Virus record (IMG/VR): IMGVR_UViG_3300000116_000056
Coordinates: 1 to 40,511 of that record
Direction: 5' to 3' (one strand)
DNA length: 40,511 bases
Origin: a virus
Position 1 is the first letter of the stretch, and each line of letters opens with the position of its first letter. The notes beneath the pieces are model-generated. The model worked only from the letters and a program-made list of their open reading frames with translations, ran no database searches and was not told the origin of the DNA. Below are positions 12,333-28,571 of the stretch, piece by piece. The position numbers and the translations under genes are program-made.

Positions 12333-12361
12333 ATCATAGCACACCCAGAGAGCGTTGTCAA
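12333..12361 (-). promoter_or_regulatory. Sigma70-type promoter TTGACA-N17-TATGAT
   Basis: On the minus strand, TTGACA (12356-12361) and TATGAT (12333-12338) are separated by exactly 17 bases. The -35 box overlaps the stop codon of gp5. Transcription would start near 12326 and run into the small-gene cluster, perhaps on to talC. This is a near-consensus host-type promoter inside a late structural region. Confidence 0.8.
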
Positions 12362-14841
12362 TTCAGGTTGATGGCACCACCCAGGATATTTACAATTGCA
12401 CCCTTGATCGTAACAACTGCACCAGCAGTGATGTCCACTGCTGCACTTGCTTTCAATAGGACCGCACCTGCAGCAACACTAGCAACAAATGCACCAGCAC
12501 CAACCTTGAATAGAGCACCACCTGCTTTACATGTTACAAGGAATGGACCTGGTGTAACAACAGAGAACCTAGGAATAGGATCAAGTGATGGTGATGGACC
12601 TAGGATAATATCATAGGGTCCATTACACTGCCAAAATACACCTGATTTTGCCTTAGGCAATGGCGGTACGTTTACAAAGTGCCACTGAGCAGATGAATAT
12701 GTTGTCAATGTATTGTTAGCACTCATAACAATATCACCACCACGAATATTTACGGATGGAGCATTGATCTCAGTATTACCTGTTGGAGCACCAACAGTGG
12801 TGTTCATAGTATTGATATTACCATCAGTAGCATTCACTTTGAATGTACCACCAGATGAACTGATATCTACATCAGATTCAAATTTGATTTGGTGCTTTTG
12901 AATCTTATCTGTCTTACTGGGAGTTTTGCCATTGGCATCTTTCTGCTGTGGAGCACCAACAGCAGTAACCATCATGGCACCACCAACCTCAAGATGGAAG
13001 TTACCTGTCACTTTTAGGTGGTAATCACCATTGACAGTATGAACTTCATCGCCTCGGATATTATAACAAAGATCTTTAGCAACATCAACGGTATATGCGT
13101 TTGCATATTGACTATGGTCACCTGCTACTGGTTTCTTCTCAGTTTTACTTTTATCCCTAGAAAGTGCTTTCTTTTCATCTGCTCCTGCTTCTGTAGCAAG
13201 ATACTTCTTATATGCATTGTCATCAACATAAATTGATGTATGCACAGTACCAGAAGGAGTTCTTTCAGTCTGAGATTGTCTACCAGGAACACCTGTATGT
13301 TGTTTCCAACCACCACTCAAGAATGTTTCTGCTTGTGTCAGATATGGACTTGCATCGTTATAAATCTGAGATACAAAATCTGATGCAATATTACGACTAC
13401 CTTGAGAAAAACCACTTCCTAGGTCACCACATTTACGGTTCCCTAATTTAGATGCAAGTCCTTCTGCATCACAATAAGTAGTACCTAAGAATGGAATGAA
13501 TGCCTTTGTTCTAGTATCTTGTCTGGTTCTATCACACCCAAATTCAAAGAGGTTGAACAAGAACAAAACAATTTGTAGGAACCCTTCAAGACCAACTTGT
13601 TGAAGATCAAATCCTTCGGCAAAAATTGTAGATCCTTCTTTCCAAGTATCAATAATCTTCTTAGCAGCACCAATACCAGAAAGAATGCCCTCAGCAGCAG
13701 ATACAATATTCTTTACAGCACACAGAAGACTGTCCATTGCTGACAAAATACCTTGCCCAAGTTTATCAATACCTGCATTGATAAAATCCCCAGCAAAGTC
13801 CAATGCTTGATCAATGGCAGACTCAATAAATGAACTGAATGGTGACATCACCATGTCAATAAAACCACTGATCTGATCATCAAGAGTACAGATCTGAGAC
13901 AAAATCAACTGAATGCCAGTTTTCACAACTGCCATTGTTGCAGTTGGAATACCAGTAAATGATGCAATCATAGCACCACCAGAAGTTAGTTTTCCTGCAA
14001 GTTCTGTCAAAAACTCCCGCATAGCAGCAATTGCTTCAGCACCAATCGCCGCAATTGCGTTTTCTACAGATCCAATAATATTATCAAGTGCAACTGGAGC
14101 ACCTGTAGCAAGACTGACATATCCATTACCTTGAGACTTGATTCCAGACAGTTCTTTTGCTGCTGTATCAAGAACAGATTCTAGATGCACCGTAAGGGTC
14201 TTAGAAGGTCCACCAACGCCGTCTGCAGCAGCGACTGGGGGTCCAATACTCTTTGCAGCGCCTGCCGTACCAGTTTTGATACCAACGCCGCTAGGGTTCG
14301 CTGGTGCGCTTTGAGAGTCCTCTTTAGTTCCTGCAGTTTGAACAGAATTGTTTCTATTTGCGTTTTGCTCATCTCCTTCCATAGTTGCCGTATTATTGGC
14401 ACCTGAGGCAGTAGCATAATTGACCACTTTACGCATTTCGCCGCCAGTTAGGGCAAAAAGTGGTTCCGACCGAGATTCTCCGCCTTTGATAGTACGAAGA
14501 ACTCCCATAATACAAGGCATCTGTGCTTCTTCGCCGTCTAGAAAGAAACCTAGAACAATAGCACCAGATTGTAATTGACCAGAAGACTGTCCCTGACCAT
14601 CATTACCTGCTTGGTTTGTAGGTTGTAAAACCAATGCCCATGGCAAATCATCTGTTGGTAGTGTCTCCATAGAACCACCATCAGCATCTGTATACCAACC
14701 CAAAATTCTTACTTTGACACGGTTGATCTGCAGGGGATCTTGGTTATCTTCAACCTCTCCAATCCACCATTGCATTCCGTCCTTACCAAAGAAGTCATTC
14801 TGACGTTCTTTTACATATCCTTCAACTTGGGACGTTGCCAT
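12358..14841 (-). CDS. Baseplate central spike protein gp5-like, without lysozyme domain
   Basis: 827 residues. About residues 20-130 form the gp5 OB-fold region (MQWWIGEVEDNQDP, then RVKVRILGWYT and LPWALVLQP). About 220-480 is alanine-rich and helical (repeated IDQALDFAGDFINAG-like segments). About 590-827 is the beta-helical spike: AYTVDVAKDL, DVDISSSGGTFKVNA, then glycine- and alanine-rich strands ending VNILGGAINLN. T4 gp5 carries a T4-lysozyme domain between the OB-fold and the spike. I find no ExxxxxxxxD...T lysozyme motif here. The protein should form the membrane-piercing tip of the tail tube. It has its own late promoter (14864-14871) and a duplicated hairpin element upstream. Two giant hub proteins nearby carry the hydrolase domains instead. 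Confidence 0.85.
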   Translation of the reverse strand: MATSQVEGYVKERQNDFFGKDGMQWWIGEVEDNQDPLQINRVKVRILGWYTDADGGSMETLPTDDLPWALVLQPTNQAGNDGQGQSSGQLQSGAIVLGFFLDGEEAQMPCIMGVLRTIKGGESRSEPLFALTGGEMRKVVNYATASGANNTATMEGDEQNANRNNSVQTAGTKEDSQSAPANPSGVGIKTGTAGAAKSIGPPVAAADGVGGPSKTLTVHLESVLDTAAKELSGIKSQGNGYVSLATGAPVALDNIIGSVENAIAAIGAEAIAAMREFLTELAGKLTSGGAMIASFTGIPTATMAVVKTGIQLILSQICTLDDQISGFIDMVMSPFSSFIESAIDQALDFAGDFINAGIDKLGQGILSAMDSLLCAVKNIVSAAEGILSGIGAAKKIIDTWKEGSTIFAEGFDLQQVGLEGFLQIVLFLFNLFEFGCDRTRQDTRTKAFIPFLGTTYCDAEGLASKLGNRKCGDLGSGFSQGSRNIASDFVSQIYNDASPYLTQAETFLSGGWKQHTGVPGRQSQTERTPSGTVHTSIYVDDNAYKKYLATEAGADEKKALSRDKSKTEKKPVAGDHSQYANAYTVDVAKDLCYNIRGDEVHTVNGDYHLKVTGNFHLEVGGAMMVTAVGAPQQKDANGKTPSKTDKIQKHQIKFESDVDISSSGGTFKVNATDGNINTMNTTVGAPTGNTEINAPSVNIRGGDIVMSANNTLTTYSSAQWHFVNVPPLPKAKSGVFWQCNGPYDIILGPSPSLDPIPRFSVVTPGPFLVTCKAGGALFKVGAGAFVASVAAGAVLLKASAAVDITAGAVVTIKGAIVNILGGAINLN

Positions 14842-15629: not shown

Positions 15630-15663
15630 TATTTAGTATAGTATTGATAGCCTCTAGTGTCAA
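15630..15663 (-). promoter_or_regulatory. Sigma70-type promoter TTGACA-N17-TATACT fused to a late box
   Basis: On the minus strand, TTGACA (15658-15663) and TATACT (15635-15640) are separated by 17 bases. The last bases of the -10 also form ACTAAATA (15630-15637), a T4-type late box. The -35 overlaps the stop codon of the gp27-like gene. It could give both early and late transcription of the 75-residue gene and cpeT. Confidence 0.8.
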
Positions 15664-17450
15664 CGGTTTTTGTTCTTACGCCGACGATTCCGTCTCTTGT
15701 TCTTCTTACTGTTCATCTTCTTAGTACGAGTTCCCCCAGAACCCTTACGGCCACCGCGATTTGCTCTCCGTGCCGTTCTCTCAGTCCGACGTATCGCCCT
15801 CCGTCCTGCTGTAGACCTCTTCTTATTACGCCGCTTTCTTCTTTCGAGATTGCTGACATTCTTACCACGTTTTTTTGATCTCCGCCTTCTCTTCTTCCTG
15901 CTACCCAGTCCACTTCCAACGATAGGACTTGCACCACGGCGTCTAAGTCCTCTACGCTTCTTACGAACGCGACCCTTACGTTTCCGTCTACCTGAAGCAT
16001 TGCCAGCAATAGTTGCTGTACTCTCATTATTCTTAGAACTTGCACCACCACTGTCAGGTGTAGAATCTCTAGTCAATAGAAGAATAGAAACCATCCTTCC
16101 ATCATGATACTTATGCTCGGTACTAGCAATGATCCAAAGACCACTCCAACGTTGATCTGTAGGAATGTTTGTACTATTTGGGTTATCTGGCAATGCTTTT
16201 GGAATCGTGATATGAATACCATGACCTGCCATCAAATCTAAGTTACCTGGTACACTAATTTGAAGTTGTTGATATAAAAGACTCTTTAGTCTTAGGAAAT
16301 TGTATGATGCTGCTTCAACAATAGACTTCACACTCTGTCCACCAATTGGAGCAGACTGTTTAGATTCTTTTTTCTCCATGTTGCCATAACCACGAGTCAT
16401 GACTGGTTTCAGTCTTACTCGTCTAGGAGTATCAACCATCGATGGTTCACCCTGAGGTGCCAACTTACTCATGTCAAATGGTGGTTTTCCCTTTGGATTG
16501 ACATGTGACATGTCTTTCCATTTTCCTCTAATAGTATACTCATCCAATGCTAATGGTAGGTCGCCTGATTGATCTCCACTAGAACTCTTAGCAAGATCAA
16601 CAGGATCAAATCCTTGTGTATATCCTGCCCATGTACCATGCCTAAGATTTTCTAGCAGATTATAAGACTTGGGAAATGAAATCGATTGGATGATAAAGTC
16701 TTTAGTTTCTTCTGCCATACTTGGCAGGTTTGCTTGACTATATCCATAGTAATACAGTTGTGGTAATGGTCTCTTACCAGTACCTTTCTTTTCGCCTTTT
16801 GGTGTCTGTTTATTTGCATCCTCAATCATCGCATCGATTGTAATGTAATGATATCCAGATAGGTTCTCGTAGAAAATATATCCACTCTGACGTAGTTTAC
16901 CTGTCTGCTTTTTGCGAAGAGACTTCTCTGCTAGGTAGTTGATAGCATTGAATGGTCTCCAGTTTGGACAAACATAGGAAAACTTTTCATCCGTTGCTTC
17001 TGCATACAACTCTTTATCAGTGTTGATATAGTCTGAACCTAGATACTCGCCAACATAATCATCAGTCTTTTTACCTTGGAATGAACCAAATACATTGACA
17101 AGTTCATTTCTCAGAAACTCTTCTGAACAGAGGTGTAAATTATATACGTTACGTTTTTCAAATCTAACACGATCAGTGATCTTATAAAGTTGAAGATTGT
17201 ATTCAACTTTCTTTCCACTAACATCGTTTTCTAATGTGAGGAAGAATGTTTCACCACCTGCTAGTCTACTGATGACATCACCAGAGTCATCAAATGCTAT
17301 AATTGCTCTGATAGCAGGGGAATCAATCCCCTCCATGATTCTAACTTCGTTTACATACTCATCAAATTTGTTAGTCTTGTTATCTGGTCCTGCAACACCT
17401 TCAATCTCAAGACTAAATCCTGTTGCGCCTTGTCCTCCTTTTACGTCCAT
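15660..17450 (-). CDS. Baseplate hub protein (gp27-like) with long Arg/Lys-rich tail
   Basis: 596 residues. About 10-210 resemble the first half of phage hub proteins (EVRIMEGIDSPAIRAIIAFDD, then ITDRVRFEKRNVYNLHLCSEEFLRN). Residues 160-175 (CPNWRPFNAINYLAEKS) match the hub pattern W-x-P-x-x-A-I-x-x-L. About 375-460 is the closing beta domain (LQISVPGNLDLMAGHGI, WSGLWIIASTEHKYHDG). From 488 to 596 the protein becomes extremely basic: by hand count about 57 of 109 residues are K or R, with only two acidic. T4 gp27 is about 390 residues and has no such tail. It overlaps the upstream giant gene by TGATG, and its place after the hub/tape genes fits a hub ring subunit. The gp27 equivalence is inferred from position and style. 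Confidence 0.65.
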   Translation of the reverse strand: MDVKGGQGATGFSLEIEGVAGPDNKTNKFDEYVNEVRIMEGIDSPAIRAIIAFDDSGDVISRLAGGETFFLTLENDVSGKKVEYNLQLYKITDRVRFEKRNVYNLHLCSEEFLRNELVNVFGSFQGKKTDDYVGEYLGSDYINTDKELYAEATDEKFSYVCPNWRPFNAINYLAEKSLRKKQTGKLRQSGYIFYENLSGYHYITIDAMIEDANKQTPKGEKKGTGKRPLPQLYYYGYSQANLPSMAEETKDFIIQSISFPKSYNLLENLRHGTWAGYTQGFDPVDLAKSSSGDQSGDLPLALDEYTIRGKWKDMSHVNPKGKPPFDMSKLAPQGEPSMVDTPRRVRLKPVMTRGYGNMEKKESKQSAPIGGQSVKSIVEAASYNFLRLKSLLYQQLQISVPGNLDLMAGHGIHITIPKALPDNPNSTNIPTDQRWSGLWIIASTEHKYHDGRMVSILLLTRDSTPDSGGASSKNNESTATIAGNASGRRKRKGRVRKKRRGLRRRGASPIVGSGLGSRKKRRRRSKKRGKNVSNLERRKRRNKKRSTAGRRAIRRTERTARRANRGGRKGSGGTRTKKMNSKKNKRRNRRRKNKNR

Positions 17451-20400
17451 CAGAAACCTCCAGCAAACAGACCAAATCCAGGACGATAATTGTATATATC
17501 GTCACTAGATAACCGACCACCGCCGCCACCTTTCGGAACAGGAACTTTGATTGGTTTATCTGGTATTGGTTGAGACATTGATGCTACTTGTTTTTGTGCC
17601 TGTTGATTCTGCTGTGTTGTTTGTGTGGCAACTGCAACTGCTCCTTGTTTTTGTTTTGATTTTATTGCATTCTTTGCCGTTGCAACATTAGTAGTTTGAA
17701 GTTTTACTTGCTGTGGTTTTACAACAGGAGGTTTGATACTTGCAGGTACTACCTCTCCTCTAAGTTCACGTTTCAGAGAGCGTTCTTTCAACTTGTAAGC
17801 TTGGACTTTCTGTTCTAACTTAGATGCGGTAATTAGACCACCAGTACGAGGATCCTTGAATATCCCTAATCCTTTTGGTCCTACTGGGGAGTTCCTCGCT
17901 GCTTGAAGGTAATCTCTTTGGTGCTTGAGCATCTCCATCTGTTTTCGGAATGCCGCCTTCTGCTCAATACCACCACCAGCAGATCTGAGTACCTTGATGG
18001 GTCCACCTTGTGATGCAAAAGAAATACCAGCACGCTTACTACTTCCAGTTTCCATCACACCTGCTTCATCATTACGACGCCAGTTATTGATACCACCGTT
18101 ATGACTTGCTAATCTACTACGATATGCAGAAATAACTGGAGCATAATTACCAGTGCTCAGTGACTGTTTCACAGTATCTTTTATACCAGCACCAGACAAA
18201 GATCCATAGTTGAAGACTACAGACTCTAGTCCTGCTTTTACTCTATTTGGTGCCTTATTATAGTCACTGCCAACCTCATCGGTGAGACGCTTGCGGTGCT
18301 CAATAATATGCTTAGACTTGATCCAATATGCTTCATCTTTAGTAATCGTGTCACCCTTCTGGACCTTACCAGACTTACGGAATCCCTTTGGATAGTAAGT
18401 TGCACCAATACCAATCGTAGGAATCTCCCACCCATAGTTAGCATCAGCATATGCCTTTAGTCTTAGACCTTCATAATTACCTAGCAGTGCTGCAAACTTC
18501 TTATCAAATCCACCACTGACTGATGCTGAACCACCTGCTAGTTCTCCCGTTGCAGATGCTGAACCACCTGCTAGTTCTCCCGTTGCAGAGTCCCTATTTC
18601 CAGCTTCACTACCAGGACCTGCAGTAGATGCATCTTCGGGATCCTTACCACCGAATGTAGCTGCATTGAGTTTTGCACCTCCATACGTTTTATCACCATC
18701 AATTGAATGAGCACCCTTTAGTAAGAGGTTACCCAGGTTGGCAATCATTGACCCAATACTCTCTTGTGGTTTTACATCAGCACCAGTAGAGTTTGTACCA
18801 CCACCTTGTGATGTTTCTCCTGTAGTTTGTACATCACTATTGATTGCTCCACCACCAGGAACACCACCTTTACCAGGAACAACAATCCTACCAGTACCAG
18901 GACCACGGTCAACCCAGATGCCATCCATCAATGACTTAGGATATACAACACCCCTACCTTTAGTATCTGATGCACTAGTGAGATTGCTTTGTGCCCATCC
19001 ACCCTTGGGAGTTGGGTTCAGTTTTCCATAGGGATCGTTTACAACGATGTCATTACCTCGGTAACCAATACCAGCAACCATGTGACCACTGCCACTGTTA
19101 TGTTGCAGACCTAGGATAACAGGTTTACCTGCATTGATTGCTGATTTATATGCATCATATGATCCAAAATCACCACCAGATGCAGGAACACCAAACTTTT
19201 TCATTGCTGGTGGGTGTGCTCCCATGCTAGTGGAAGCACCATACTGCGAACGAGTCTTATTATACTCGTCAGGTAAGATATTCTTTCCTAAGATTGCCGA
19301 GACAACCATTGCAGCAGAAGTGGAGAAACATTGTGAGTCTCCACCAGTACCTAGAGCATCAGTTTTGTTTGACCTCTGGTTGAAATATGGTACGCTTAGG
19401 ATTTTACCACCACCAGCAGGAGGTTCTTTTTCTCCAGCATTCTGTTTTTGACCCTCTGCAATCTTTTCTGCTGGAATATTGGCACCCCCAGATGCCTTCA
19501 GTGTTCTACCTAAAGAACCACCATTAGAAAAGAAACCTGCATGTTGTGCTTCAGAATTACGACGTGCTGTTAGACCTTTATTACCTCTAGTAGCAGGAGT
19601 GTCATATGGAACAACGAATGCAGACCCACCTGGTTTTGAGTACACCATCTCGGTGCCATGACCAATGAATGCTGTACTAGCACCACCATCCAGTGATACA
19701 GGATACCCTGTCTGTGGTCCTTGAATGATACCACCATTAGCAAACCCACGTAGAGATCCACCTGTTGCCATCTTAGGCATAGCAGTAGCTTGCTCTTCCT
19801 GGTCAAAGAAAGATTTACCACCCAGAATGTTTCCAAACCCTGCCTTAGCATAGTTGAAAGCACCAACAGCACCTTCTTTCAGGTTTGTTGCCGCTTGTCT
19901 AGGATCTTTTATAGCATCTGAAACGCCGCGGCCAATGTTTCCTACCTGTTGCCCTGCATATTCTTGCAGATTCTTAGGTGGTTCTGGAGCAGGTTGTGGT
20001 CCTCCTACATTCTGTCCTGTTGGTGCAGGTGCCTCTTGTGTAGTGCCAACACTTTCTGCTGGTCCACCTGCTTCTGTATCACCTGCTGCAGAAGTTGTAG
20101 CAATACCAAACGCTGCAGTCAGTTGATCTAATTGAGATTGAATCTTAGGAGTAAGACCTTCAATCTCAGCTTCCTGATCCTTTTCATCATCAGTTATATC
20201 TTCTTCTGCCTTTTGCAGATCCTTACCAGTGACACCATCATTATTCATGGCATCTAATGCCATGCCAGTACCAATAATAGCACCACTGAATAGCAATGCC
20301 TTACCAGCTTTGCTACCAAATAGTTTGCCCAATCCTCTTCTCAGTCCTTTAGAAGTAGCAAGTTTTAGTAACTTCTTACTAAACCACATCAAAGATTTGA

Positions 20401-21067
20401 AGAAACCTTTGAATACTTTGAAGACCATCTTGACGACGAACTTGATCGCCTTGCCGCCAAATAGTTTCTTGAATGCTAAGAATCCTGTTCCTAATGCAAT
20501 CAAGAACAATCCACCCTTCAGGATCTCCTTCCAGAAAGGCATTTCAGTAAACTTAGCAATCAAATCTAGGGTAGTCATTACGATACCCGAAGTCACATTG
20601 AATAGGAACTTACCTACACTAATGACACCTTCAATAATCTTTTGTAACTTCTCACGATTTTCTTCCTTGCTCATCCACTGCATGAGTGGAACTAGAACAA
20701 ATAATTTGAACATCCCACCAAGGAGATCTAAGATACTGCCAGCACCCTTTGCTACTAGTGCGGCAATACCACCGAGAACCATACCACCGAATGGATCTCT
20801 TTTCTTTTTCTGTAGTGCAGGTTTATCTCTTCTTTTATTATCCTTTTCAATTTTCTGCTCCGCTAGGAAGTTCTTTGCAGATAGATTTTTGAACTCCTCA
20901 AACTGTCTAGCAATACCATTGACAGAACTACCTAAATTATTGAGACCTTCAACAACTTTATCATTGCCTACCGAAACTATTCCAGGTTGACTCTCAACCT
21001 TCCCTACAAATTTGTAGAAATTTATCTTTTGCTTACGCTTTTCCTTATTGACTCTTTGATCTGCCAT
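17450..21067 (-). CDS. Giant hub/tape-measure-like protein with C39-type peptidase and GH24 lysozyme domains
   Basis: 1205 residues from the ATG at 21067 (TGATG overlap with the upstream gene; a TTG one codon earlier is less likely). Residues 35-165 resemble the N-terminus of the 1083-residue neighbour (VVEGLNNLG, then MQWMSKEENREKLQKI), followed by hydrophobic segments to about 270 and a Pro/Gly/Ala linker. Residues about 556-690 form a papain-like C39-type domain: VPYFNQ with Gln564, SQCFSTSAAM with Cys580, SGHMVAGIGY with His662, and VNDPYGK with Asp678. After a linker with a 33-base tandem repeat, residues 853-1008 are a GH24 lysozyme: YEGLRLKAYAD (Glu866, Asp875) and PTIGIG (Thr884). A Gln/Lys-rich tail follows. 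It probably lies in the tail and cuts peptide and glycan during DNA entry. Tape-measure function is inference. Confidence 0.8.
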   Translation of the reverse strand: MADQRVNKEKRKQKINFYKFVGKVESQPGIVSVGNDKVVEGLNNLGSSVNGIARQFEEFKNLSAKNFLAEQKIEKDNKRRDKPALQKKKRDPFGGMVLGGIAALVAKGAGSILDLLGGMFKLFVLVPLMQWMSKEENREKLQKIIEGVISVGKFLFNVTSGIVMTTLDLIAKFTEMPFWKEILKGGLFLIALGTGFLAFKKLFGGKAIKFVVKMVFKVFKGFFKSLMWFSKKLLKLATSKGLRRGLGKLFGSKAGKALLFSGAIIGTGMALDAMNNDGVTGKDLQKAEEDITDDEKDQEAEIEGLTPKIQSQLDQLTAAFGIATTSAAGDTEAGGPAESVGTTQEAPAPTGQNVGGPQPAPEPPKNLQEYAGQQVGNIGRGVSDAIKDPRQAATNLKEGAVGAFNYAKAGFGNILGGKSFFDQEEQATAMPKMATGGSLRGFANGGIIQGPQTGYPVSLDGGASTAFIGHGTEMVYSKPGGSAFVVPYDTPATRGNKGLTARRNSEAQHAGFFSNGGSLGRTLKASGGANIPAEKIAEGQKQNAGEKEPPAGGGKILSVPYFNQRSNKTDALGTGGDSQCFSTSAAMVVSAILGKNILPDEYNKTRSQYGASTSMGAHPPAMKKFGVPASGGDFGSYDAYKSAINAGKPVILGLQHNSGSGHMVAGIGYRGNDIVVNDPYGKLNPTPKGGWAQSNLTSASDTKGRGVVYPKSLMDGIWVDRGPGTGRIVVPGKGGVPGGGAINSDVQTTGETSQGGGTNSTGADVKPQESIGSMIANLGNLLLKGAHSIDGDKTYGGAKLNAATFGGKDPEDASTAGPGSEAGNRDSATGELAGGSASATGELAGGSASVSGGFDKKFAALLGNYEGLRLKAYADANYGWEIPTIGIGATYYPKGFRKSGKVQKGDTITKDEAYWIKSKHIIEHRKRLTDEVGSDYNKAPNRVKAGLESVVFNYGSLSGAGIKDTVKQSLSTGNYAPVISAYRSRLASHNGGINNWRRNDEAGVMETGSSKRAGISFASQGGPIKVLRSAGGGIEQKAAFRKQMEMLKHQRDYLQAARNSPVGPKGLGIFKDPRTGGLITASKLEQKVQAYKLKERSLKRELRGEVVPASIKPPVVKPQQVKLQTTNVATAKNAIKSKQKQGAVAVATQTTQQNQQAQKQVASMSQPIPDKPIKVPVPKGGGGGRLSSDDIYNYRPGFGLFAGGF
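18522..18587. repeat. 33-base perfect tandem repeat (two copies) in a linker
   Basis: Two identical adjacent 33-base units encode two copies of an 11-residue Gly/Ala/Ser/Thr segment (TGELAGGSASA in circular order) just before the GH24 domain of the 1205-residue protein. Perfect identity at DNA level points to a recent duplication or slippage that lengthens the linker in frame. Confidence 0.9.
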
Positions 21068-24000
21068 CAATAATTCTCAAACCTGATTGAGTGATCAGCC
21101 TTTCCAGTAACTGTAGTAATTACTTTAGTGCCCCGTGTTCTATTTATTGGCATTGGAATGACCTTTGGTATTGGAACGACTACCAATTCTTGCTCTTCCT
21201 GTTCATGAATAGCAGCAACAGACTGAGATGCTTTAGCAATACTATTTACTCTACCACCACCAGACATTTTCGCTAAGAAACTCTTAGCATATTTTATTCT
21301 AGGTCCATCATGTGCTACACCTGCACGTTCCCAGGTTTTACGGAAATCTACTGTGGCATTTGCAACATCAGTCTTTTGTTTGAACTCTCCCCATGATCCA
21401 GATGTTCCAGTACCTTTACGAATGAATCCGCCATTACCTGACATCAATTCAGACATTAGGAACTTATAGTTGTCTGAATTACTTGGGATCTTACTGTAGT
21501 CACCACCATAAGAAGCGATGAACTTATCATATCTATCACCAGGTGCAGAGTTAGTCCACTGTGCCCATCCATATCCCTTTCTAACTGTACCTTGAGGCCA
21601 TGGTTTACTATTCTTACCAAAAGGTCCACCTTCTCTGATACCAGGAATGAATCCAGCAGATTCATGTGCCATGTTACCAGAAATTGCCGCTGCTGCTTGT
21701 TTAGTAGCACCAGTATCGCTCATAATCTTTTTAGAAATGTCAACACCTTTTGCGGTAACACTACCAGAGACTGCTAATTTTCCAGGATCCCCTGTATATC
21801 CACCACCACTAGTAATACTATTGCTTGAATCACTGTCAGTAGTAGGAGAGGTTGATTTATCTTCTGCATCTGGTGGTGTAGGAGGTGTTATAGCATTGGG
21901 GAATAAGGATTTCATTACACCCAGTAATATACTTGCAGCACCACCAGTAGGATCTGCCGCTTTCAACACCTTCATACCAATTTCAGTTGGTGGTGGAGGA
22001 GATGCTTTTTTATCTAATTCTTTCTGCTTCTCAACTGTATCAGATGTTCTTTTATGTACTGGTTGCTGCTTTAGAAGTTCTGCTTCAGATGCAGCGACAA
22101 CTCTTTTTTCAACTTCCTCAGGGGTAAGACCTTCTGCCCTTGCTTCTGCCCTTGCTTTCTGTGCTGCTTGCCACACTGGTAAGTTTGAAGAACCAGTCTT
22201 TGTAGGATCAAGTACAGATCCACCCATAGACATCTTGATATTACGAACTAAACCACCTGCTGCTTTCTCTGGTAAATTTTCGTCTGGAGTTGCAGCATCC
22301 AATTTTTCCTTATCGAAGTTGAATGCATCCATGAATGATACATCCTTCTTAGGAAGACCAATAACATCAGCAAGTTTATCTGCTAACCATTCTCCACCCC
22401 ATTGTGTAGCACCAGTGACAACACCAGCAAGAATTGCAGCACCAATACCACCAGTACCAGCACCAATAGCACCCAAGATAGCAGTACCAGCAACCAAACC
22501 TGCGATAGAACCAGCAAGTTTTAGTGCCACACGACGAGGATCTTGACCTGCCTTCAGTTCCATTGCAGCAAACAATGTCTCAACAATAACGTCTAGAGGA
22601 CCAATCTTGAATGGCGCTGCAGCGAGAGCGTTCTTTGTACCCTGGACAGCAGGTTTCGCAATCTTTACAAACTTCTTGAAAAGACCTTCTCCACCTTCTT
22701 TTCCTGCCTTACCTTTGAACTTATCAATAAAGAACTTGGTAACAGGATTCCCTTCAATTAGATCTGAAGCGGTCGCCTTCAGTGGTGCCAAGAACTTATC
22801 GACAACAAAATCTTTACCTTTTGCAGCAAGGTTTGTAATATTATCGCTCAGTTTAGTCCAGTTACTAGAAACTGTTTGTGGGAGTTCCTGAACAGTTTTC
22901 AGGAAAATTTCTAGACCCTCCTTATATTGTTTGAATTTTGCAACGGCAAACTCACTAGTGATATCCCATGCACCTTTAGCAATATCAATACCCTGCCCAA
23001 CTTGCTTGCCGAACCTGGTATTAGAAAACCACTTTAGAAGATCACTACCACCTTGGGTAATAGGATCAATAAATCTTTTCTTTGCTGCATCTTTAGTTTC
23101 TGATAATGCCTGCCTAGGATCCGCTCTAAACCCTTCTACTATATCAAATGCCTTTTTACCAGCATTTTGTAGAGGTTTCGTTATCTCATCGGCACGTTGG
23201 AGTAATCCTTCGCCACCCGCTTTTATAGCATCCAATCCACCCGACAATCGTTTTAGTATACTGGGTGGCAGACTATTCTTGAATGCCTCAACTGCCCTTG
23301 CAACTGCCTTTGCAATCTTAGGTTTGACTACATTCTTGAAAAAGTTTGCACCCCATCTAGCAATCTTTGATGAAAGATCAGCAAGGAATACACCAATAAT
23401 AGAGAAGACACCTAAAACTTTCTTCAACCAGCGTCCTTTCAGACGCTTGTACATAATCCTAATTCTCTGCCTTAGTTTTCCCAACCAAGTCTTAGGTTTC
23501 TTTGTCTTGAGTTTATCTGGTCCATCTGGATCAGGTTTACTACGATCTAAACCACTATCATCATCCGATGACAACATTCCTAGAAGATCTAGGATACCAC
23601 CCATCATACTGAATGGGTTCAGGAACATCGCTAAACCCTTGAGAGCAAGCAATCCTACCAGGAGTTGACCGAATCCCATTATGGATTCCCAGACCCCTCC
23701 TAGGTCCCCCTTCATGATCTTACTGATACCACCAAACAGTCCTGCCAGACCGTCCATCAAATTAGTTACACCAAATGTTCCCCATTTCCATAGGAAATCA
23801 AAGATTACTTTGGTAAACTCTACAAGTTTTTTTACTTTTTCTACATTTTTTTCATCAGAAAACCATTTCATGATGCCAATAATGGCAGCAAACTGGATGA
23901 ATGGTTTTATCAAATTCCAGATAGGTGTCAGCAATTGCTGTAAAAAACTACCCTTCTTTTTTAGTTTCTTATCCTTCTTCCCTACTTCCTTACCAACTTT

Positions 24001-24318
24001 CTTTTCATCTATAGGTTTGACTGCAGCACCACGCTCTTGACTTGCTTCTTTCTGATCAAGTTGCCTGTCTCTATCTGCTCTACGTTCATCAACCTCTTTA
24101 TTTCTTAGAGATATTGCACGAACTTCCTCAATAGATTTCAGTCCTCGGATTGAGGTGTAAATACTATCCGTTGCTGCACCAAGTCTATTGATACCAAGAA
24201 CAATCTTACCACTAGGCAGTTTCTTAGCGTTTGGCGTTTTCACGCCACTAGATTTCAAGGTCTCCTTATCCTTGGAACTAAGACTTGGGTTTACAAATTT
24301 GTAACCTAGTTTTGCCAT
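21067..24318 (-). CDS. Giant hub/tape-measure-like protein with tail lysozyme domain
   Basis: 1083 residues. Residues 36-90 (KIVLGINRLGAATDSIYTSI and a charged helix) and 130-180 (LLTPIWNLIKPF, MKWFSDEKNVEKVKKL) match the order of segments in the 1205-residue neighbour, so the two look paralogous. The middle (180-690) is helical with several hydrophobic Gly/Ala-rich stretches (for example AGTAILGAIGAGTGGIGAAI). Residues about 860-1015 form a tail-lysozyme domain: TKQAAAAISGNMAHESAGF with catalytic-type Glu886, then KGYGWAQWTNS and RYDKFI, as in the phage tail lysozyme family. The C-terminal 50 residues are a beta-rich extension. Its position after the chaperone-like pair is where tape-measure genes sit in tailed phages. 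It probably travels in the tail tube and degrades peptidoglycan at entry. Confidence 0.8.
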   Translation of the reverse strand: MAKLGYKFVNPSLSSKDKETLKSSGVKTPNAKKLPSGKIVLGINRLGAATDSIYTSIRGLKSIEEVRAISLRNKEVDERRADRDRQLDQKEASQERGAAVKPIDEKKVGKEVGKKDKKLKKKGSFLQQLLTPIWNLIKPFIQFAAIIGIMKWFSDEKNVEKVKKLVEFTKVIFDFLWKWGTFGVTNLMDGLAGLFGGISKIMKGDLGGVWESIMGFGQLLVGLLALKGLAMFLNPFSMMGGILDLLGMLSSDDDSGLDRSKPDPDGPDKLKTKKPKTWLGKLRQRIRIMYKRLKGRWLKKVLGVFSIIGVFLADLSSKIARWGANFFKNVVKPKIAKAVARAVEAFKNSLPPSILKRLSGGLDAIKAGGEGLLQRADEITKPLQNAGKKAFDIVEGFRADPRQALSETKDAAKKRFIDPITQGGSDLLKWFSNTRFGKQVGQGIDIAKGAWDITSEFAVAKFKQYKEGLEIFLKTVQELPQTVSSNWTKLSDNITNLAAKGKDFVVDKFLAPLKATASDLIEGNPVTKFFIDKFKGKAGKEGGEGLFKKFVKIAKPAVQGTKNALAAAPFKIGPLDVIVETLFAAMELKAGQDPRRVALKLAGSIAGLVAGTAILGAIGAGTGGIGAAILAGVVTGATQWGGEWLADKLADVIGLPKKDVSFMDAFNFDKEKLDAATPDENLPEKAAGGLVRNIKMSMGGSVLDPTKTGSSNLPVWQAAQKARAEARAEGLTPEEVEKRVVAASEAELLKQQPVHKRTSDTVEKQKELDKKASPPPPTEIGMKVLKAADPTGGAASILLGVMKSLFPNAITPPTPPDAEDKSTSPTTDSDSSNSITSGGGYTGDPGKLAVSGSVTAKGVDISKKIMSDTGATKQAAAAISGNMAHESAGFIPGIREGGPFGKNSKPWPQGTVRKGYGWAQWTNSAPGDRYDKFIASYGGDYSKIPSNSDNYKFLMSELMSGNGGFIRKGTGTSGSWGEFKQKTDVANATVDFRKTWERAGVAHDGPRIKYAKSFLAKMSGGGRVNSIAKASQSVAAIHEQEEQELVVVPIPKVIPMPINRTRGTKVITTVTGKADHSIRFENY

Positions 24319-25321: not shown

Positions 25322-26179
25322 TCAATCTCGGTTTTGTTTCTTTCTGTTCCTTCTATTCCTCTTAGACTTATTAGATCTAGGTCCTTTGTTTTTATTGTTT
25401 GTCTTACGTTGAGAACGCACTCGATCTTTTGCGTTTTTATTCTTGCGATTTGATCCTCCAAATTTAGGATCAGCATAGAATCTATAGCGTTCATATGCGA
25501 AGGTAACATCCAGTGTTACTAGTTCACCAGGGTTGTTAGTGAACTGTAAGGTCCCAACAGATTTAGGAAACACGTTATACATGTGCCACATACCTACAAC
25601 TCTGTTGTACTTAGGCCATGATCTATTTTTACCACCTGCATTCTCGTATACTTTGTAGTCTGCAGGAATAATATCTCTATTACTGCCACGTTCATACTTA
25701 TAGATGAAAAATAATGGAGCAACATACTCATTATAATAATCAACATACTGGTTAGCATCGTTTGCCATGATGGTCATCCATCTTTCAAACACTAGTAGAT
25801 TGACGTATGATCTAGGAATCAAAAACTGTACATTCATCTCAGAGAATGTACTACCAGTTGCATAACTAATCTCAGATCCGACTGCTCGGTATGAACCAGT
25901 CGTAACTTGTTTTGTTGGTGTATTGACTTCGTTTGCATACAGAGAAAAAATTCTCATGTGGTCAACATATTTTTGTTTGAATAAACCAGTATGCAGTCCT
26001 CCTTGACCAAGACCACCTGATAGTGCTCTAGGATAGGTCATTTGAAAATGCCAAAGTTGTGAAGTAGATACTCCATACTTCTCAGGTCCCATAACATGGG
26101 ACATAAAGTTCTGTAGAGACCCACCAAGTGTAGACTCTGCTGCTTCAGCTGATGATCTAAATCGATTTATCTGTGGCAT
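25322..26179 (-). CDS. Tail-tube-type protein (gp19/gp54 family), probable tube initiator, with basic tail
   Basis: 285 residues. Residues 70-235 have the tail-tube outline: VDHMRIFSLYANEVNTP, TFSEMNVQFLIPRSY, FERWMTIMANDAN, then the diagnostic late part NVFPKSVGTLQF...ELVTLDVTFAYERYRF, like the (F/Y)PxSIxxxxxxxx...VTFxYxxY end of gp19-type tube proteins. In T4 the relatives are gp19 (tube) and gp54 (baseplate tube initiator). The location among baseplate genes favours gp54. Residues 243-285 are a basic tail with about 20 K/R in 43 residues, not expected in gp19. It overlaps the gp4 stop by one base and is followed by the hairpin element. Whether it is gp54 or another tube-ring protein needs structure comparison. 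Confidence 0.65.
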   Translation of the reverse strand: MPQINRFRSSAEAAESTLGGSLQNFMSHVMGPEKYGVSTSQLWHFQMTYPRALSGGLGQGGLHTGLFKQKYVDHMRIFSLYANEVNTPTKQVTTGSYRAVGSEISYATGSTFSEMNVQFLIPRSYVNLLVFERWMTIMANDANQYVDYYNEYVAPLFFIYKYERGSNRDIIPADYKVYENAGGKNRSWPKYNRVVGMWHMYNVFPKSVGTLQFTNNPGELVTLDVTFAYERYRFYADPKFGGSNRKNKNAKDRVRSQRKTNNKNKGPRSNKSKRNRRNRKKQNRD

Positions 26180-27602: not shown

Positions 27603-28571
27603 ATGGCAAACTTCTTCGACTACATACCAGACGTTTACTATGGTGTAGAAGTATCCAAGAACTACTTGGAAGAATCTTCTATGGAATATGTACTAGGGAA
27701 GAACTTCTTCCGTAGTGCAAGAATACGTGATGACTTTGAGCAGTATGCGACTCTATTCAAACCATACTATATTCAACCAGGTATGAGACCAGACATGGTT
27801 TCTTATGAAGTGTATGGTGATCCAGAACTAGACTGGATACTTCTAATCATCAATGATATCTTTGATGCCTATACAATGTGGCCTAAAGAACCTGTAGAAC
27901 TGACAAATTATGTCACTGAGATATATGGTGAAGGCAATGAGGTTGCTACACATCACTGGGAGACCAGAGAAGTAAAAGAAGGGGGTGAAATCATCCAACG
28001 TGGTGGTCTGACAGTAATGCCTAATTATACTGCAGTCAATTACATAACTGGTGAAGCAATCACAACACCAGCATATGAAATTACAAACTATGAGTATGAA
28101 GAAGATCTAAACGAAAAGAAAAGATTTATCTACATCATGGATCCAAATATCATTAGTCAGTTTGTTTCTGAATTTGAATCACTATGTGACTATGATGATA
28201 ATGAAGACCTTGAGGATGATGGAGCACCACTTACCGAGATCCTTGAGGTAGGTAAGTATCTGTCATCACAAAGTGGCGTTGCAATCTATCCAGTCTTTGG
28301 TAAATATAAAAACTTTGTTGCTGCTGCACAATCCATTAGAGCATCACTAGAACCTCAGCAAGTTACTACTTCTAATGGTGGTATAGCATCTCAAAGTAGT
28401 GTCACAGGTAGGTCTACAGGTTATACGACCACGACTACTACTACCACGACAACTACAAGCAGCAGCACTAGTAGTTCTTCTAGTAGTTCTAGCAGCAGTT
28501 CTTCTAGTAGTTCTAGCAGCAGTTCTTCTAGTAGTAGTTCTTCTTCTGGTGGTGGTTATGGAGGATACTAA
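27603..28571 (+). CDS. Baseplate wedge protein gp53 with Ser/Thr homopolymer tail
   Basis: 322 residues. Residues 1-120 match gp53: NFFDYIPDVYYGVEVSKNY, FFRSARIRDDF, then YYIQPGMRPDMVSYEVYGDPELDWILLIIND (in parts), the typical xxRPExVAxxxYGxPxLYWxLLxxND core. The middle (150-250) has the KKRFIYIMDPN segment common to longer gp53 forms. Residues 275-315 are 41 consecutive Ser or Thr (eleven Thr, then almost only Ser), ending GGGYGGY. T4 gp53 is about 196 residues and lacks this tail. gp53 ties the six baseplate wedges together. The tail is encoded by 24-base DNA repeats (28473 onward), so its length may vary. The last 14 bases overlap the next small gene. Confidence 0.85.
   Translation: MANFFDYIPDVYYGVEVSKNYLEESSMEYVLGKNFFRSARIRDDFEQYATLFKPYYIQPGMRPDMVSYEVYGDPELDWILLIINDIFDAYTMWPKEPVELTNYVTEIYGEGNEVATHHWETREVKEGGEIIQRGGLTVMPNYTAVNYITGEAITTPAYEITNYEYEEDLNEKKRFIYIMDPNIISQFVSEFESLCDYDDNEDLEDDGAPLTEILEVGKYLSSQSGVAIYPVFGKYKNFVAAAQSIRASLEPQQVTTSNGGIASQSSVTGRSTGYTTTTTTTTTTTSSSTSSSSSSSSSSSSSSSSSSSSSSSSSSGGGYGGY
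28473..28535. repeat. 24-base minisatellite coding the gp53 serine tail
   Basis: Two perfect adjacent 24-base units (28473-28496 and 28497-28520) and a partial third mix AGT, AGC, TCT and TCA-like serine codons in a fixed order. A preceding ACC/ACT/ACA/ACG run codes the threonines. A structure like this is prone to copy-number change by slippage. Confidence 0.85.

Follow-up and report, generated by a model that had tools for sequence, protein, structure and literature searches.

A polybasic tail on the gp27-like baseplate hub of one marine cyanophage lineage suggests a change of polarity in its contractile tail

Why should the baseplate hub of a marine cyanobacterial virus end in a long stretch made up mostly of arginine and lysine? 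The question is raised by a 40,511-nucleotide stretch of viral DNA (IMG/VR record IMGVR_UViG_3300000116_000056, positions 1 to 40,511; hereafter the window), which is 99.6-100% identical across 8.8 kb to the isolates S-ShM2, S-SSM2 and S-RIM14 of the genus Ahtivirus. A sequence-only reading had described a gp27-like hub with a protamine-like tail of 109 residues, counted by hand as about 57 Lys or Arg and two acidic residues. This count proved exact. The hub gene and its parts are as follows.

15660..17450, minus strand: gp27-like baseplate hub protein (T4-GC15, PHROG 350), 596 aa with the lineage-specific tail, identified from an AlphaFold2 model compared with T4 gp27
16056..17450, minus strand: hub core, residues 1-465, delimited by alignment and by the C-termini of IMG/VR relatives
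15990..16055, minus strand: hub linker, residues 466-487 (22 aa), Ser/Asn/Gly-rich and predicted to be disordered (pLDDT < 50; dN/dS 0.27-0.30)
15663..15989, minus strand: polybasic tail, residues 488-596 (109 aa; 37 R, 20 K, 2 E), marked by its composition, AlphaFold2 model and charge-conserving purifying selection

The protein is a gp27-like hub by fold, profile and gene neighbourhood. It matches the PHROG 350 'tail protein' profile with an E-value of 9e-130, its copy in S-ShM2 is T4-GC15, and GC15 has been found in S-SM1 virions (PMC3037559). T4 gp27 was the top match of the hub model (Foldseek E 7e-18; VIA-align), with a Z-score of 26.4 and an rmsd of 3.3 over 338 aligned residues for 1wth_D (model residues 6-466) and a Z-score of 26.2 for 1k28_D, which bears out the identity proposed from the sequence. 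The kinship to gp27 is seen by fold comparison only, a sequence search of the hub against the PDB having returned no relative. In the model the core is predicted well and the tail is mostly disordered, with one possible basic helix at residues 534-562. Tape-like/lysozyme genes lie upstream of the hub gene and CP12 and gp5 lie downstream, an order that is kept in relatives. In all relatives examined outside the lineage, the hub ends about where the core of the window hub ends, as judged by alignment and IMG/VR C-termini.

The basicity of the tail is far above chance expectation. Indeed, in an ORF scan of S-ShM2, which is 99.9% identical to the window over this region, the most basic 40-residue segment of the genome was the hub tail and the runner-up was the C-terminus of GC334. 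Sequence searches of the tail against the PDB gave no match and the whole protein gave no Pfam family, although low-complexity sequences are hard to match; a tblastn search of the tail against phages, with the low-complexity filter on, returned nothing. Codon use in the tail differs from that in the rest of the window, CGG making up 8 of the 37 Arg codons against a background of 2%, and AAG:AAA standing at 16:4 against about 1:1, a possible sign that the tail is young or came from elsewhere. Duplication of DNA as the source of the tail was rejected, as there is no tandem array and no strong direct repeat in it. The sole tRNA gene of S-ShM2 is a tRNA-Arg(tct) (L120:29009-29081). An antisense ORF of 145 aa (15670-16107, plus strand) overlaps the tail; it is probably a by-product of the Lys and Arg codons, because dS in the tail (0.22) is not reduced relative to the core (0.16-0.18), and an overlapping antisense gene or DNA-level signal was rejected on the same grounds.

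We examined whether the tail could be an artefact and where else it occurs. Its open reading frame is intact in 12 isolate phage records (S-ShM2/S-SSM2/S-RIM14) and in six IMG/VR loci (L001-L006) on close metagenomic contigs of 93-95% identity, with changes between them. It is also present in a diverged sister (L218) that shares 383 of 465 core residues (82%) and carries a tail of 112 aa with 62 K/R. A frameshift or sequencing error, named in the sequence-only reading as something that would refute it, was rejected on the basis of these records and of dN/dS values below 1. The nearest outgroup (L219; 230 of 450 core residues identical) has no tail and ends in RDSSPK. It should be noted that the genes of the outgroup and of the sister sit on separate contigs of one sample each (3300009124; 3300017903), and that each set is assumed to come from one virus. 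Further out, the tail was absent from 77 complete IMG/VR contig hubs among the matches listed (79 were read, two of which run off the contig) and from 17 phage records outside the lineage, examined among 434 with a hub match, many of them near-copies, so that a rare tail of independent origin may have escaped detection. The comparison across relatives thus showed the tail in the close ones, L001-L006 and L218, and in none of the others examined. In a tree of 64 hubs built with the tails left out, the four tailed rows form one clade (100/100) with L219 adjoining. The tail was therefore gained once, on one branch, by a single change on the tree in the ancestor of the S-ShM2/Ahtivirus lineage.

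Since its gain, the tail has been under purifying selection that preserves charge, its basicity being conserved more than its exact sequence. This view is supported by dN/dS values of 0.22-0.57 among close relatives and 0.27-0.32 to L218, compared with 0.10-0.20 in the core. Between the window and L218, 48 of the 57 K/R columns of the tail are still K/R, and 18 of the 52 other columns are identical. In neutral simulations the expected net charge was +47 for L003, where the actual value is +61 (0 of 5000 simulations), and +45 for L001, where it is +53 (P 0.014).

The hub is not the only protein of the tube family that is basic in this lineage, as can be seen in GC334 and in the tail tube protein gp19, which is encoded outside the window.

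25322..26179, minus strand: tube-fold protein GC334 (PHROG 45; tube-initiator candidate), 285 aa, from a model compared with tail-tube/Hcp folds
25325..25456, minus strand: second basic tail, GC334 residues 242-285 (44 aa), from the net charge of C-termini compared with relatives

GC334 matches the tail-tube profile PHROG 45 (E 1.2e-50) and is predicted to have a tail-tube/Hcp beta-barrel fold. Its model, of moderate confidence (mean pLDDT 63.5), gave best Z-scores of 10.4 (Lilla1) and 10.3 (T4 baseplate-tube chain 5iv5_BG), and many Hcp/tube chains scored 8-9. A comparable tail occurs in every lineage member seen: the last 45 residues of GC334 carry a net charge of +17 to +23 in the four others tested, whereas the figure does not exceed +2 among 47 relatives outside the lineage, and the outgroup protein has no basic tail. 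From the outgroup to the lineage, the net charge changed on the same branch from -5 to +22/+28 in GC334, from -11 to +9/+11 in gp19 and from +5 to +52/+66 in the hub; gp19 ranges from -11 to +2 in 76 others. In the lineage, gp19 (L119:27613-28320) has a basic C-terminus, PKERRGARRGGRARN, a basic internal loop that is RGG-like, and NRRD/NRKD before GYFADM at the site of an acidic loop in others. In the S-ShM2 record NC_015281 the GC334 gene (L105:4731-5589) is split into two annotated ORFs by a single base that the window lacks, where the ORF is intact; gp17 and gp18 are likewise annotated as two ORFs each in that record.

Proteins surrounding the tube have changed in the other direction. The sheath protein gp18 is also encoded outside the window. 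Its net charge lies between -33 and -39 in three members of the lineage, compared with -12 to -27 in all others and -22 in the outgroup. The changes include a K/R that is invariant elsewhere and has become D, another K/R that has become Q, an invariant R that has become P, and extra acidic residues. By analogy with residues 459-477 of P1 gp22, the changed residues would lie in the helix preceding the tube-contacting one. A direct charge swap on the tube-contacting helix of the sheath is not supported, because that helix is unchanged. In T4 the hub is encircled by gp6-gp25-gp53 (PMC3004832), and the gp53 family is at its most acidic in the lineage.

27603..28571, plus strand: baseplate wedge protein gp53, more acidic in this lineage than elsewhere in its family
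28188..28226, plus strand: lineage-specific acidic stretch DYDDNEDLEDDGA in gp53, found by comparison with relatives and a candidate partner of the basic tails

The net charge of gp53 is -27/-33 in the lineage, compared with -13 to -23 in others, and most relatives have a KK(T/S) motif at the site of the acidic stretch. The end of gp53 is a long Ser/Thr-rich run (SSSS...GGYGGY), and the sister copy (L134/L348) ends Ser/Gly-rich. For gp6 (-37 in the lineage, compared with -17 to -36) and for gp3 (-12/-18, compared with -7 to +5 in few sequences) the case is weak. The charges of the head proteins gp21, gp22 and gp23, which served as controls, fall inside the range seen elsewhere or near it, and that of gp20 lies at the acidic edge. 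Net charge is a crude measure for all these comparisons, and some extremes are expected by chance since several proteins were compared.

Taken together, these shifts suggest that a repolarisation of tail electrostatics is the simplest common cause of a basic tube family and a more acidic shell. We tentatively favour the hub tail as an electrostatic anchor into the inner baseplate that holds hub and tube in the newly acidic baseplate and sheath. An anchor is preferred over a DNA-binding, protamine-like role because of the joint shifts: GC334 and gp19 have turned basic and gp18 and gp53 acidic, with gp21 to gp23 unshifted. The contractile tail would have been repolarised a single time, in the virus from which the S-ShM2 (Ahtivirus) lineage descends. 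Hub, GC334 and gp19, which belong to the tube-fold proteins, would have turned basic through C-terminal tails and surface loops, and the proteins around the tube, namely gp18, inner-baseplate gp53 and possibly gp6 and gp3, would have become more acidic. If the hub is trimeric as in T4, with the same copy number, it would bear a disordered polycationic anchor of 3 x about +55. VgrG/eCIS hubs extend past the stretch over which they align with the window hub, so the tail probably leaves the core at the end that faces the spike, presumably pointing outward. It would most likely hold on to acidic surfaces in the inner baseplate, for instance DYDDNEDLEDDGA in gp53; we infer both this placement and this partner. 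Hub and tube may then be held until contraction breaks the contacts. The wider picture of a contractile tail with reversed polarity, in which a polycationic tube, initiator and hub act through disordered tails on a more anionic sheath and inner baseplate and the hub tail is the strongest anchor, is possible but doubtful.

Several observations count against the anchor. One concerns the spike protein, which is expected to lie closest to the C-terminus of the hub.

12358..14841, minus strand: gp5 spike protein, its charge not shifted in the lineage

As gp5 has not become more acidic, an acidic partner of the tail in gp5 was rejected. In addition, the gp18 changes lie off the helix thought to contact the tube, gp6 and gp3 are weak cases, and gp20 is likewise at the acidic edge.

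Other explanations must be weighed against this one, and the first of them involves the tape-like protein.

17450..21070, minus strand: tape-like protein with C39-peptidase and lysozyme domains (domain matches), pI 9.7
20030..20209, minus strand: acidic linker of the tape-like protein, residues 288-347, a rival partner defined by charge per 60 aa

The tail may sit inside the hub channel or at its opening, where it would bind this linker and retain the tape protein until release. The linker carries -13 per 60 aa in the window and -16 in L218, without an equal in six other cyanophages (-3 to -8), and in Mu the C-terminal domain of the hub touches both spike and tape protein (PMC11915804). Binding to the acidic tape linker, one of the options of the sequence-only reading, may still apply, but the tail-less L219 has an equally acidic linker (-15), so that the linker predates the hub tail. 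The tape-like protein is moreover very basic overall: it and a second long tape-like protein at 21067-24318, both with murein-hydrolase domains, have net charges of +50 and +52, and their relatives are also basic (+7 to +59). As a tether in the lumen would also leave the basic tails of gp19 and GC334 and the acidic sheath unexplained, we regard it as unlikely. Contact with the host envelope seems similarly improbable. Here, the basic tails at the tip and surface of the tube, once exposed by contraction, would attach to anionic targets (lipopolysaccharide, peptidoglycan or lipids of the inner membrane), aiding penetration or docking, and it is no more probable that the acidic sheath is a compensation that keeps a basic tube clamped before contraction. 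The hub C-terminus would, to judge from the fold, lie at the distal tip, the hub, gp19 and GC334 have all turned basic, and murein hydrolases are encoded beside the hub gene. However, there is no host-specific evidence, the same picture can be explained without the host, and no amphipathic membrane helix was predicted with confidence in the AlphaFold2 model.

A protamine-like role, with the tail gripping the front end of the DNA or condensing the DNA on its way out of the tube, is the least supported functional reading, and we consider it very unlikely. It has in its favour the Arg-rich, protamine-like composition and the RGG-like motifs in the gp19 loops. Nevertheless, tube lumens are usually negative, which lets DNA slide (PMC8718954), in T4 the tape protein is the likelier occupant of the channel (PMC3004832), Pfam and PDB searches gave no match to a DNA-binding family, and the acidification of sheath and gp53 would be left unexplained. 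No test pointed specifically to DNA, and a function modelled on protamine or H1 is not supported. That the tail is a biased low-complexity extension drifting without a role is scarcely credible. Its low complexity, its confinement to one lineage and its deviant CGG use would fit such an appendage, but the charge-conserving purifying selection speaks against it, as does the retention of the tail from relatives of 93-95% identity to the sister at 82% core identity.

The holding and release of tube by sheath, and of hub by baseplate, are usually explained by the complementary charges that structures reveal. A lineage with a joint charge change in several interacting proteins, together with a known tail-less relative, makes this idea testable. 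Our findings suggest a rewiring of the injection machine's electrical polarity in one marine cyanobacterial virus lineage; if this is true, nature has performed a charge swap that bears on how tube and shell hold on and let go. The conserved core of an injection machine can acquire long disordered tails, which tend to be missed by structure maps.

Compared with known systems, T4 gp27 and cyanophage T4-GC15 (PHROG 350) have the same fold as the window hub (residues 6-466) and the same place before gp5, the 22-aa linker and the 109-aa polybasic tail being the extra part of the window hub. The VgrG and eCIS hub-spike proteins also have the gp27-like fold, with a chain that extends beyond the end of the window core (4mtk_A aligned over 5-350 of 627). 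In VgrG a folded gp5-like spike follows the gp27-like part, whereas in the window hub the basic tail that follows is disordered and gp5 has a gene of its own. The likeness to protamines and histone H1 tails drawn earlier holds for a K+R content above 50%, the near absence of acidic residues and disorder, and the excess of R over K is protamine-like. The tail is, however, without a detected sequence relationship to either in Pfam or PDB searches, and with 37 R, 20 K, 5 A and 1 P it is not Ala/Pro/Lys-rich as H1 is. Lastly, sheath-tube contacts rest on opposite charges in R-pyocin, P1 and Milano (PMC6088184, PMC10304247, PMC10811340), and reversed charges have been suggested, with doubts, for a model of the C. 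difficile diffocin (PMC6088184). The sheath patch of R-pyocin is positive and the tube exterior of Milano negative, whereas in the present lineage the tube family is basic, the sheath is unusually acidic and the tails are disordered.
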